DNA of 64,000 nt. Source: Cyanobacteria bacterium FACHB-471. GTDB taxonomy: Bacteria; Cyanobacteriota; Cyanobacteriia; Elainellales; Elainellaceae. Position numbers and translations under genes: made by a program. The stretch covers positions 186,001 through 250,000 of the forward strand of contig JACJOC010000115.1 of NCBI GenBank assembly GCA_014695345.1, written 5' to 3'. Shown piece after piece: positions 50,031-55,152 of the stretch; the stretch's first letter is position 1, and each line of letters opens with the position of its first letter. The notes beneath the pieces are model-generated. The model saw only the letters and a program-made list of their open reading frames with translations, ran no database searches and was not told the origin of the DNA.

Positions 50031-50297
50031 GTGATTGCCATTCTTTGTGCCGGAATTGCTACCATCCTGATTCCGCGCCGCATTCCGGGCAAGCTAATCG
50101 GCATGATTGTGATCGGGCTAACTGGAGTTTGGCTAGGCGAATGGGGAACTGGGCTGTTGCGACAGCGCTATGCCATCAACTACAGCTTCCTAAACTGGAG
50201 CATTGAAGGGGTTCCCATCGTTCCCGCTATCATCGGCTCAGCCGTCATTCTCTATCTGGTAACCAGCTTTCTCAAATGGGGAAGATATTACAAATGA
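50031..50297 (+). CDS. Small membrane protein, GlsB/YeaQ/YmgE-like
   Basis: 88 residues with three hydrophobic segments. IAILCAGIATILIPRRIPGKLIGMIVIGLTGVWLGEWGTG resembles the transglycosylase-associated GlsB/YeaQ/YmgE family (glycine-rich TM pairs), and the last segment IIGSAVILYLVTSFLKW matches its third helix. Function unknown; family members are linked to envelope stress. It begins 36 bases after proC, so it may be part of that transcript. GTG start. Confidence 0.65.
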   Translation: MIAILCAGIATILIPRRIPGKLIGMIVIGLTGVWLGEWGTGLLRQRYAINYSFLNWSIEGVPIVPAIIGSAVILYLVTSFLKWGRYYK

Positions 50298-50320
50298 GAA
50301 TTGGGGATCAGAGAACGGAC

Positions 50321-50410
50321 TTTTCCCCAACCCCCAAAAGTTTTCCACAGAACGATCTAGTTTTCCACAGCTTTTCGTAGGTTTTCCACAAAAAACTTTG
50401 GAAAACTGTG
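50321..50410. other. Phased array of DnaA-box-like sequences (candidate origin or titration site)
   Basis: TTTTCCACA, the DnaA-box consensus used by cyanobacteria, occurs at 50341-50349, 50361-50369 and 50382-50390. TTTTCCCCA, one mismatch, lies at 50321-50329, and a reverse near-match (TTTGGAAAA) at 50397-50405. Forward starts are spaced 20, 20 and 21 bases, about two helical turns. The array lies between two convergent genes, so it is not a promoter for either. I noticed no other perfect copy in the window. The flanks are not strongly AT-rich, so an unwinding element is not obvious. Confidence 0.6.
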
Positions 50411-50439
50411 ACGATGTACACATCCCAAGGTAGACAGCA

Positions 50440-52080
50440 CTATTCCCACTCGATTGTGCCGGGCGGCTTGGACGTGATGTCGTACACAACACGGTTAACG
50501 CCCCTAACTTCATTCACAATCCGCGTAGAAATGGTTTCTAGCAGATCGTAAGGAACTCGTGACCAGTCAGCGGTCATGCCATCTTCGCTAGAGACAAATC
50601 GCAACACGATTGGATAAGCGTAGGTGCGCTGATCGCCCATCACACCAACACTGCGGATAGGGAGTAAAACTGCAAACGCCTGCCAATAATCGTGATATAC
50701 ACCCTGTCGGTTGATTTCTTGCCGCACGATATAGTCTGCGTCTCGCAAGATATCTAACTTTTCTGCTGTGACTTCACCCAAGATCCGAATTGCCAAGCCT
50801 GGACCAGGAAATGGATGTCGTCTTACGATTTCTTCGGGCAAACCAATCGACCGCCCTAGCTTGCGAACTTCGTCTTTAAACAGCTTTCGCAATGGCTCTA
50901 CTAGCTTAAAGCGTAAATCCTTAGGTAACCCGCCAACATTGTGATGACTTTTAATTTTGACCGCAACTCGCTCTCCAGTTTGGGGATCAATGTTGGTGTC
51001 GGCTGACTCGATCACATCTGGGTAAAGCGTTCCTTGAGCCAAATAGTCAAATGGTCCGAGACGCTTGGATTCTTCTTCAAATACTTGGATAAACTCATGC
51101 CCGATCCGCTTTCGTTTTTCTTCGGGATCGTCGATTCCTTCAATTTTTTGGAGGAAGCGTTCACGAGCATTGACGTACTCGACCGGAATGTGAAACTGCT
51201 CCTGGAACAGCTTGACTAGCCGCTCTGGCTCATACTTTCGCATGAAGCCCTGGTCGATAAATACGCAGCTTAGCTGATCGCCAATTGCTCTGTGCAGTAA
51301 GAAAGCTAGGGTAGAAGAATCTACACCACCTGATAGGGCCAACAGCACCCTTTTGTCACCGACTCTAGCGCGAATTTCCCGAATTGACTCTTCGACAAAT
51401 GCGTCAGTTGTCCAAGTTGGTTCACACTCGCAAACGTGATAGACAAAGTTGCGGATCAGCGCTAACCCACCTAACGAGTGCACAACTTCAGGATGAAACT
51501 GAACGCCATACAGCTTGTGATCGTGGTGGGCGATCGCCGCGCAGGAGGTGTTCTCGGTATGGGCCAATAGCTCGAACCCTTCAGGCAATCGAGTCACCGA
51601 GTCACCGTGACTCATCCACATTGTGGTGCCATCTTCTACATTGGTCAGCAAATCCGTTGGGTCATCAATGTGGAGCGAGGCTTTACCATATTCTCCTCTT
51701 TCAGCCCGCTCTACATCGCCGCCAAGTTGCTGCACCATCAGCTGCATTCCATAGCACACGCCCAAAATAGGAATGCCCAAACCCCAGATACCCGGGTCAC
51801 AATGAGGCGCACCTGCGTCATACACCGAGTTGGGACCACCGGAGAGAATGATGCCTTTGGGGTTAAGCTGCTGAAGCTGCTCAGGCGTAGTGCGGTAGGA
51901 CAGCACCTCTGAGTAGACTTGAGTCTCACGGATGCGTCGGGCAATCAGTTCAGAATACTGAGAGCCAAAATCCAGAATCACAATCATCTGGCGATCAAGC
52001 CGTTCTACGGATGGCGTATACGGCGGTTGTTCAGTTTGTAGAGTCACCGATGAGTCCTGATGAAAGTCAGTAGTGGACAA
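50440..52080 (-). CDS. guaA: GMP synthase (glutamine-hydrolysing)
   Basis: 546 residues; converts XMP to GMP with glutamine as amino donor. Class I glutamine amidotransferase part: [11 protein letters not shown], nucleophile Cys in GVCYGMQLM, and GVQFHPEV with the catalytic His. The ATP-pyrophosphatase P-loop follows as [14 protein letters not shown] near residue 249, and the C-terminal dimerisation domain ends [13 protein letters not shown], the canonical terminus. An extra N-terminal stretch of about 25 residues (before [20 protein letters not shown]) is as in cyanobacteria. Confidence 0.97.
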
Positions 52081-52163
52081 AGATAACGGAACTATAAGAA
52101 ACGACTTTGTGAAACGAAGGGAACTTATAAAGCTTGTGTAGGAAATTCGATATTCTGATTAGC

Positions 52164-53297
52164 TTAACAAACCTGAGTGAGGAATGTGGAGCCAATTTTG
52201 CTTTGAACGATAATTTGGCGATCGCGATCAAACAAAATAGAGCCAACTTGAACCCGGCGATCGCTATGAGCATGAATGTAGGTGTGCGATCGCTGGTCAA
52301 TTTGCTGGGCGATCGCCCCATAAATTTGCTCAACCCAGCAACTCCCGGTGGTTGAGTCGAGGTGGCGGAGGTGTTGAAGTGCTGCCTCTGCGGTCGGGCT
52401 TTTAAAAACAAGCTGTACGTCTGCGGTCGGCAATCCCTGATTGGCAGCATGAGCCGCAAAGATTTCCTGTCGTCCGTCGGCGACATGATGGTGGGTGTGA
52501 AAAATGCCTCCTGCAAGCTTAATCAGCTTGCCGTGATAGCCAAATAGCAGAATCTTTTGAATTCCTTGCAGTCCGGCTTCGACCAGCATCGGACCAAGCC
52601 AGTTTGCAGTTTTGAGCAGGCGATCGCCCTTCACACCCATCTGCTTCGCCAAATCCAGCCCATTTTCGCCCACACAAAACACCAGACAGTCATATTCTGC
52701 TCGTTGTCGCAACGTTTCTCGGTAAACAGCAAGCTGATCTGGCGCACTGAGTGGTTGGGAAATTCCCGAAGTTCCCAGCAAGGAAAGGCCTTCGACTACG
52801 CCAAAAGCTGCGTTAGAGGTGCGTTCAGCCAGTGCCCGACCTTCTGGCAAAATGATTGTCACTCGAATCTTTTCTCCTGGCTCCAGTTCCCGGCTCAAGT
52901 TCTCGTGCAGCAGCCGACGAGCATAGGCATAAATTGCGGGCTTGTCGTTCTGATCATGCCGTCCAATCCCCTCACCTCCTTGAAGGGTGATCGCCTCCGT
53001 CTGTTCTGGCAATCCAAACTCCACGAGTGCCCAAATGGGAGTATCGCGAGTCAAATCCAGATTGTCTCCCGGATCGCTGTAAGCAATCGCTAATGCAGCA
53101 TCGGCACGAAGGCTAGCACTTTGCTCGATTGGAATCTCAACCGTTTCTGAGGGCTCCACTAGATCGACCAATACCGATGAAATGGGGGAAGTAACTTGAT
53201 GAATGCGCCGCAGTGCAGCGATCGCAGCAGCACAAGCAAACACAGGCAGCGTATATCCTGGGCGTGCTTTAGAGTAAGCGAGAGGGTCACGGGTCAT
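52164..53297 (-). CDS. cbiD: Cobalt-precorrin-5B C1-methyltransferase CbiD
   Basis: 377 residues. Anaerobic-type cobalamin synthesis: C1 methylation of cobalt-precorrin-5B. Recognised by YTLPVFACAAAIAAL (replacing the typical YTTGSCAAAAAKAA), SVxKYAGDDPDVT-like region degenerated to YSDPGDNLDLTRD, GEGIGR, FGVVEGLSLLGTSGI and GYHGKLIKLAGGIFHTHHHVADGR, a strong CbiD signature. Its presence with cobA and cbiX supports a cobalt-early B12 route. Divergent from moaA. Confidence 0.92.
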   Translation of the reverse strand: MTRDPLAYSKARPGYTLPVFACAAAIAALRRIHQVTSPISSVLVDLVEPSETVEIPIEQSASLRADAALAIAYSDPGDNLDLTRDTPIWALVEFGLPEQTEAITLQGGEGIGRHDQNDKPAIYAYARRLLHENLSRELEPGEKIRVTIILPEGRALAERTSNAAFGVVEGLSLLGTSGISQPLSAPDQLAVYRETLRQRAEYDCLVFCVGENGLDLAKQMGVKGDRLLKTANWLGPMLVEAGLQGIQKILLFGYHGKLIKLAGGIFHTHHHVADGRQEIFAAHAANQGLPTADVQLVFKSPTAEAALQHLRHLDSTTGSCWVEQIYGAIAQQIDQRSHTYIHAHSDRRVQVGSILFDRDRQIIVQSKIGSTFLTQVC

Positions 53298-53377
53298 TAT
53301 GAAAACGGTATCAGACCGCTATAGTTATACAAACATCTCAGCCTAGCCTCATATACAGCCTCGATGCTTTCTGTACG

Positions 53378-54406
53378 ATGGAAGAAGGGCAGTTATCACA
53401 AGTGTGTCGGAGTGAGAAGTTGAACCAGGTCGATTATCTTCGCATTAGTCTGATTGACCGCTGCAACTTTCAGTGTCAGTACTGTATGCCTGAAGGCTCA
53501 GAACTGGAATATGTTCGACGACAGGACATTTTAAGTCAGGATGAGTTACTGACGCTGCTACGTGAAGTATTCATCCCCAATGGGTTTACTCGCTTTCGCT
53601 TGACCGGAGGGGAGCCGCTGCTGCGTCCGGGTGTGGTGGAATTGGTGCGGGCGATCGCTGCTCTGCCTCAAACCCAAGATCTCTCCATGACCACTAACGC
53701 ATTTTTGCTGACAGACCTAGCCCAAGACCTACACGACGCTGGGCTACGCCGCATCAACATTAGCCTCGACTCGCTAGAGCCAGAAACCTTTGATCGAATT
53801 GTAGGCAATCGAGGGCGATCGCGCTGGCAGCAAGTCTGGCAGGGCATTCAGGTTGCCCATCAGGTTGGGTTTGACCCGCTGAAGCTGAATGTAGTGGTTA
53901 TTCCAGGAGTGAATGACCATGAAGTGCCGAATCTTGCGGCCCTTAGCATCGAGCGAGAATGGCACGTCCGATTCATTGAATTCATGCCAATTGGCAATGC
54001 TGGCTTATTTCAGGACAAAGGCTGGGTTGCCTCAGAAGCACTGCGACAGCAAATCCGCGATCGCTGGGGGTTAGTTGAAGCTACGGTTTGCGGCAATGGT
54101 CCCGCCGATGTCTTTAAAATTCCTGGCGCAAAAGGTACTTTAGGTTTCATTAGCCAGATGTCCGAGTGTTTTTGCGATCGCTGCAACCGCATGAGACTAT
54201 CAGCAGACGGGTGGCTTCGTCCCTGCCTGCTCAATGAAATCGGTCAGCTTGATTTGAAAACGGCTCTGCGGTCAGGCATCCCGCTCTCTGAAATTCGGTT
54301 ACAGGTGCAGCAACTGCTGTCCGCCAAACCTGAAATCAACTACAAAGAGCGAGAATCCGGCACGGGCGGAGCTTATGTTCGCACGATGTCTCAGATAGGA
54401 GGCTAA
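53378..54406 (+). CDS. moaA: GTP 3',8-cyclase MoaA
   Basis: 342 residues; radical-SAM enzyme that starts molybdenum cofactor synthesis. The N-terminal [4Fe-4S] cluster motif [10 protein letters not shown] holds Cys29, Cys33 and Cys36. The C-terminal cluster ligands are in [20 protein letters not shown]. The essential GG terminus is present (RTMSQIGG). [11 protein letters not shown] and [12 protein letters not shown] are further family segments. No moaC or moaE neighbour in the window. Confidence 0.96.
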
Positions 54407-54464
54407 GCACACAGATAATTCAGCAGGTCGCAATATCGAATTGCACCCCCAAAAGTTGAAACTA

Positions 54465-54506
54465 AAAAATGGGGCATGAGATTGAAAACCATCATGCCCC
54501 ATTTTT
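54465..54506. terminator. Bidirectional terminator between moaA and rpsD
   Basis: 15-bp perfect arms AAAAATGGGGCATGA / TCATGCCCCATTTTT with a 12-base loop, placed between convergent genes. Each strand ends in a T-run, so it serves both. Confidence 0.88.
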
Positions 54507-54543
54507 ATATTCTAAGTAGCCAGCACATTCTAAAGAAGCAGCA

Positions 54544-55152
54544 TTAAGCCTGTCTAGAATAGTACTCAACCACAAGCAGTTCATTAATTTGTAGAGCGAC
54601 CCACTCCCGCTCAACCACATTGTTGACCTTGCCAACAAATTTGTTCTTGTCAAACTCTAAATGGCTGGGGAGGTGAGCCAAGCCAGGAAACTGGAGATTT
54701 TGCTCTACCAATTTACGAGAGCGATCGCGATCTCTTACCCCGACCACGTCTCCAGGTCTGCACTGATAGCTAGCAATGTCTACAACCCGTCCATTCACTG
54801 TGACGTGCCCGTGGTTGACCAGCTGTCGCGCACCAGGAATGGTAGGAGCCATACCCATCCGAAAAACAGTATTGTCCAAACGCATTTCAAGCAGTTGCAA
54901 GAGCGTCTGCCCAGTAGAACCAGATGCTCGTCTTGCCTTACGCACATAGCGAAGAAGCTGACGCTCAGTCAAACCGTAGTTAAACCGCAGCTTTTGCTTC
55001 TCCTCCAGACGAACTGCATACTCCGAGCGCTTTTTCCGCGCCTGTCCGTGTTGCCCCGGTGGATATGCCCGTCTAGGACTTTTGCGTGACAGACCTGGTA
55101 ATTCTCCCAGGCGGCGTACAACTCTGAGGCGCGGACCTCGATATCGCGACAT
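54544..55152 (-). CDS. rpsD: 30S ribosomal protein S4
   Basis: 202 residues, full length. N-terminus [36 protein letters not shown] is the cyanobacterial/plastid S4 type, with no zinc-binding Cys. The S4 RNA-binding domain [39 protein letters not shown] follows at about 91-130, and the C-terminus ends VVEYYSRQA. It nucleates 16S rRNA assembly. Alone, as in many cyanobacteria. Confidence 0.98.

Follow-up and report, generated by a model that had tools for sequence, protein, structure and literature searches.

A phased DnaA-box array 3' of guaA is kept across many cyanobacteria and probably helps to control the DnaA free to start replication

An array of DnaA boxes located 3' of guaA is kept across many cyanobacteria and probably helps to control the amount of DnaA that is free to start replication. 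The array was analyzed in a 64-kb stretch of DNA (here called the window), which corresponds to positions 186001-250000 of contig C19 in a draft genome of 7.15 Mb and 118 contigs (G000, the host genome). The closest relatives of its GuaA protein in the genome collection were found in cyanobacteria such as Pantanalinema and Elainella. The original prediction for this site, a chromosomal origin (oriC) or a DnaA titration site, is only partly retained: the origin is assigned to a bigger box cluster at dnaN, and titration is kept as the best-fitting, putative function.

The array in the gap between guaA and its convergent neighbor

The predicted array is real. All of its five elements, namely three perfect copies of the box TTTTCCACA, one copy with a single mismatch, and an inverted near-match, were found at the predicted positions (Table 1), and the box-to-box spacings are 20, 20, and 21 bp when the one-mismatch box at 50321 is counted. 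Conservation as boxes in the sister genomes G001-G003 is limited to the three perfect copies; the other two elements, which had been included in the predicted array, were not kept there. The box TTTTCCCCA falls within a terminator-like stem of the opposite strand, and the same variant is also present in phase in the array of genome G006. The near-match TTTTCCAAA is probably a hairpin arm rather than a box, and together with its hairpin it looks like a local addition. In the 64-kb window, perfect copies of TTTTCCACA occur at 50341, 50361, and 50382 only, and two boxes within 30 bp were obtained in 0 of 100 dinucleotide shuffles of the window. The location of the array between convergent genes agrees with the earlier view that promoter regulation is improbable. 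A family search with the 88-aa open reading frame (ORF) on the far side of the gap gave no match.

Table 1. Features of the guaA array and its flanks (window coordinates)
Feature	Position	Strand	Remark
DnaA box 1, TTTTCCACA, perfect	50341..50349	+	conserved in sister genomes G001, G002, G003
DnaA box 2, TTTTCCACA, perfect	50361..50369	+	conserved in sister genomes G001, G002, G003
DnaA box 3, TTTTCCACA, perfect	50382..50390	+	conserved in sister genomes G001, G002, G003
One-mismatch box TTTTCCCCA, in phase, doubtful member	50321..50329	+	not kept in G001-G003
Inverted one-mismatch near-match TTTTCCAAA	50397..50405	-	no counterpart box in G001-G003
Intergenic gap, 142 bp, containing the array	50298..50439	.	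convergent genes on both sides
guaA, glutamine-hydrolysing GMP synthase	50440..52080	-	conserved neighbor of the array; 3' end at 50440
88-aa ORF	50031..50297	+	other, non-conserved neighbor of the array; behind proC

The gap also has features of a structured RNA. Its guaA-sense transcript (50300-50440) folds unusually well (z = -5.8), a terminator-like stem is located at 50301-50337, and one stem of the guaA-sense RNA pairs the inverted near-match with box 2, which raises the alternative that an RNA hairpin or terminator is the actual element at the guaA 3' end and the boxes are incidental to it. This explanation is highly improbable. In whole or in part, the hairpin formed by the near-match is common to G000-G003; in many other genomes it is weak or missing. 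Such folding is not general among the array-bearing relatives, whereas the exact 9-mer and its phase of 20-22 bp are, and the spacers, which make up much of the stem in the host, are near-random elsewhere. As a general explanation, a terminator or palindrome was rejected because the hairpin is not shared among relatives.

Conservation of the array and its genomic neighbors

The presence of the array at guaA is not due to chance. Among 79 guaA loci, which were picked from the genome collection by protein and regardless of boxes, 14 carry two or more perfect boxes in the 600 bp that follow guaA on its 3' side, as compared with 2 of 1377 control windows, defined as the other 600-nt windows of the same loci (P = 7e-17, a value that overstates the number of independent events, since the loci share ancestry). 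In the genome-wide searches for arrays described below, a reversed control pattern gave 0 matches with three boxes and 1 match with two boxes. The spacers are just 32% alike, little more than unrelated sequence would be, while the boxes themselves are perfect, a pattern indicative of selection on the boxes. In a sample of 60 genomes of relatives, 57 have a guaA match, and in at least 31 of these the array is located 32-545 bp 3' of guaA; in a class-wide sample of 145 genomes 28 of the 70 three-box arrays sit 3' of guaA. In total, the array was found 3' of guaA in at least 43 genomes from nine families, and every one of these arrays points against guaA; these counts are not independent, because 16 genomes belong to both samples and the 79 loci partly stem from the sampled genomes. 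The guaA site is not universal, as most of the guaA loci of Nostocales are without boxes.

The phase of the boxes is shared as well. For neighboring boxes on the same strand, the usual distance is 20, 21, or 22 bp (28, 99, and 51 unique pairs, respectively), which is approximately two helical turns; the loci were gathered with patterns allowing 17-25 bp, and therefore the sharpness inside this range is informative and the rarity of other spacings is not. The nucleotide G is common immediately before and immediately after the box.

All 36 sampled genomes of the host's family possess the array, located either at guaA or at a gene of the uncharacterized family TIGR04376, and in two of them it is degenerate. 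The boxes of G006 and G027, missed by the strict pattern, occupy the same gap in phase and are partly degraded; in G002, the contig stops inside guaA, and an alignment served to place the array. In G007, G025, and several other members of the family, the array is found between TIGR04376 and guaA, with both genes pointing at it. This arrangement looks ancestral, and TIGR04376 is likely the ancestral neighbor of the array. Eight genomes (G004, G012, G013, G016, G019, G020, G028, and G035) have the array at TIGR04376 without guaA, and others have it at guaA without TIGR04376, including the host, where the TIGR04376 gene is located on contig C81. Because the array stays with guaA or with TIGR04376 when the two are separated, as expected of a self-acting element that holds DnaA, it more likely acts by itself than regulates one gene. 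On the far side from guaA, the neighbor of the array varies among TIGR04376, a probable cation-efflux transporter (assigned by resemblance), and the 88-aa ORF of the host; on the guaA side, cbiD-like and moaA-like genes recur (loci L218-L225, window positions 50031-55152).

The recurrent position and orientation, 3' of guaA across nine families and without exception against the gene, might alternatively reflect an action of DnaA on transcription. As a roadblock or insulator at the convergent 3' ends, the bound protein would shape the 3' end of guaA or stop read-through or antisense RNA, thereby tying GMP supply to the DnaA level, and DnaA does regulate nucleotide-synthesis genes in E. coli (PMC11317965). 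We nevertheless consider such a role rather unlikely: the eight genomes with the array at TIGR04376 weaken a tie to guaA expression alone, promoter-like sites in the gap are not above chance, and the common orientation may be just inherited.

Box clusters of the host genome and the location of oriC

Genome-wide pattern searches identified 69 perfect boxes in the host genome, with tandem pairs within 30 bp at only three places. Such a count of clusters had been suggested as a check of the original prediction, and it revealed a bigger cluster than the guaA array: five perfect boxes, versus three at guaA, and three one-mismatch boxes in 196 bp (C19:303756-303951), the largest cluster of the genome. 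It is located outside the window on the same contig, where it directly adjoins dnaN on the upstream side; 67.5 kb separate it from the guaA array, and 66 kb separate the array from the dnaN gene itself (C19:302422-303378). The two clusters use the identical box TTTTCCACA, and the AT content reaches 65% at the dnaN cluster versus 57% in the 100-bp bin with the boxes of the guaA array. Most predicted cyanobacterial origins adjoin dnaN and contain this very box (PMC4674748), and DnaA binds the cyanobacterial box in vitro as well as, at oriC, in vivo (PMC4674748; PMC7198777). The cluster upstream of dnaN is thus the probable oriC of the host genome.

The boxes at guaA are also clustered, phased, and of the cyanobacterial DnaA type, and multiple origins have been reported for some cyanobacteria (PMC7198777). 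It is nonetheless very unlikely that the guaA array serves as the chromosomal origin or as an additional one: in contrast to a typical cyanobacterial oriC, it is situated away from dnaN, has fewer boxes, and is less AT-rich, and the gap that contains it is just 142 bp long. An origin at guaA was rejected because the larger, more AT-rich cluster adjoins dnaN, where cyanobacterial origins are expected. The absence of dnaA and dnaN from the window, correctly noted before, had been called not unusual for filamentous cyanobacteria, in which the location of origins varies; this remark is not needed, since the host genome has an ordinary dnaN-adjacent cluster, and dnaA is located on a different contig from that cluster (C63:11004). 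The GC skew, also suggested as a check, was followed along the whole 344.5-kb contig and has no switch at the guaA array or at the dnaN cluster; hence it does not discriminate between the two sites. GC skew has been described as unusable for locating cyanobacterial oriC (PMC5987646).

In the class-wide sample, dnaA is present in 142 of the 145 genomes. For G166, a genome of high completeness (3.8 Mb, one contig), the thresholds applied yielded matches to none of dnaA (PF08299), guaA, and TIGR04376, and a three-box array was not found either. Extra dnaN-like genes, with 38-40% identity to the main DnaN, were observed in G001, G002, G003, and G013, with up to three of them in G002; none was seen in G000 at this identity threshold.

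A putative DnaA-holding site

The best explanation of these observations is that the guaA array is a conserved cluster of DnaA boxes outside oriC that holds DnaA, similarly to the DnaA-box clusters (DBCs) of B. subtilis, a reading that we regard as about equally likely to be right or wrong. DnaA would bind the three same-facing boxes, one per approximately two helical turns, and neighboring molecules would end up on one face of the DNA, where binding to the phased boxes may be cooperative. The occupied array would remove DnaA from the free pool, and with less free DnaA, initiation at the dnaN-side origin would be damped or delayed. The conservation of the boxes lends indirect support to binding by DnaA. 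Between convergent genes, a stable DnaA complex would block no promoter. Three boxes in a polyploid genome of 7 Mb may by themselves hold an amount of DnaA too small to be of consequence, and the orientation and place of the array could be kept in part by shared ancestry.

The DBCs of B. subtilis are clusters of DnaA boxes outside the origin that were proposed to limit free DnaA, and control partly returned when a single DBC was put back at various sites (Okumura et al. 2012, as reviewed in PMC5295017). The guaA array likewise consists of several boxes clustered outside the origin. The array differs from the DBCs in phylum and box consensus, in its tandem, two-turn-phased arrangement, and in its association with guaA or TIGR04376. 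The ability of a DBC to work from various places has a counterpart in the variable distance between array and oriC. In genomes with dnaN and the array on one contig, this distance is 35 kb in G011, about 67 kb in the host, 479 kb in G025, 573 kb of 5.5 Mb in G010, and 1589 kb of 4.7 Mb in G053, and a TIGR04376-side array is 2441 kb from oriC; a fixed distance was looked for and not found (35 kb to 1589 kb). The variability does not favor a sink that must double early and speaks against a timing role in the strict sense of datA; it is more readily reconciled with the DBCs.

A further alternative is that the array alters the nucleotide state of DnaA, by datA-like ATP hydrolysis or DARS-like ADP release, and does not merely hold the protein. 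We judge it unlikely. The core of DARS consists of boxes in mixed orientation, whereas the three conserved boxes of the host array all face the same way, although tandem and inverted boxes are combined in some relatives (G014, G032, and G010). Like the guaA array, the E. coli elements datA, DARS1, and DARS2 are non-coding clusters outside oriC, and their sequence and place are kept among E. coli strains (PMC4585315); however, the positions of datA and DARS are not only conserved but also matter (PMC4585315), unlike the varying distance of the guaA array from oriC. The datA locus, once regarded as a DnaA sink (PMC5295017), has five boxes over approximately 1 kb, is IHF-dependent, and is found at a conserved distance from oriC (PMC4585315; PMC5295017), whereas the guaA array has three boxes in 50 bp. 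DARS1 and DARS2 release ADP from DnaA, and DARS2 requires IHF and Fis (PMC5295017).

A holding function of the guaA array is further favored by its box, identical to that of the dnaN cluster and to the cyanobacterial box that DnaA binds, and by the only other accessory cluster of the host, which likewise recurs in relatives. This cluster (C85:67940-68005, outside the window) contains four boxes spaced by 21-22 bp, two of them perfect and two with one mismatch, with a further perfect box at 68335, and is located approximately 400 bp upstream of a gene of the DUF2811 family, which has no known function, followed by hemJ. Among the 52 arrays of relatives that lie, by coordinates, at neither guaA nor dnaN, 31 have the DUF2811 gene downstream in the same direction. 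Judged from these positions, the guaA array seems to belong to a small group of arrays that recur. Three recurrent cyanobacterial arrays, at the dnaN origin, 3' of guaA or TIGR04376, and upstream of DUF2811-hemJ, might jointly buffer DnaA in polyploid cells, a tentative idea against which we would lean mildly. If true, the buffering of DnaA by three arrays would be a replication-control circuit, for which no description in this phylum was found in the open-access literature searched. The same search returned no paper linking DnaA boxes with guaA and no description of DnaA titration sites in cyanobacteria, both of which are weak evidence of novelty.

The findings also caution against taking a cluster of boxes in a cyanobacterial genome, on its own, as evidence of an origin. 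DnaA is dispensable in some cyanobacteria (PMC7198777), and the way in which polyploid cyanobacteria decide their chromosome copy number is poorly known. A small array outside oriC, kept in at least nine families while its surroundings change, provides a concrete element to delete or multiply.
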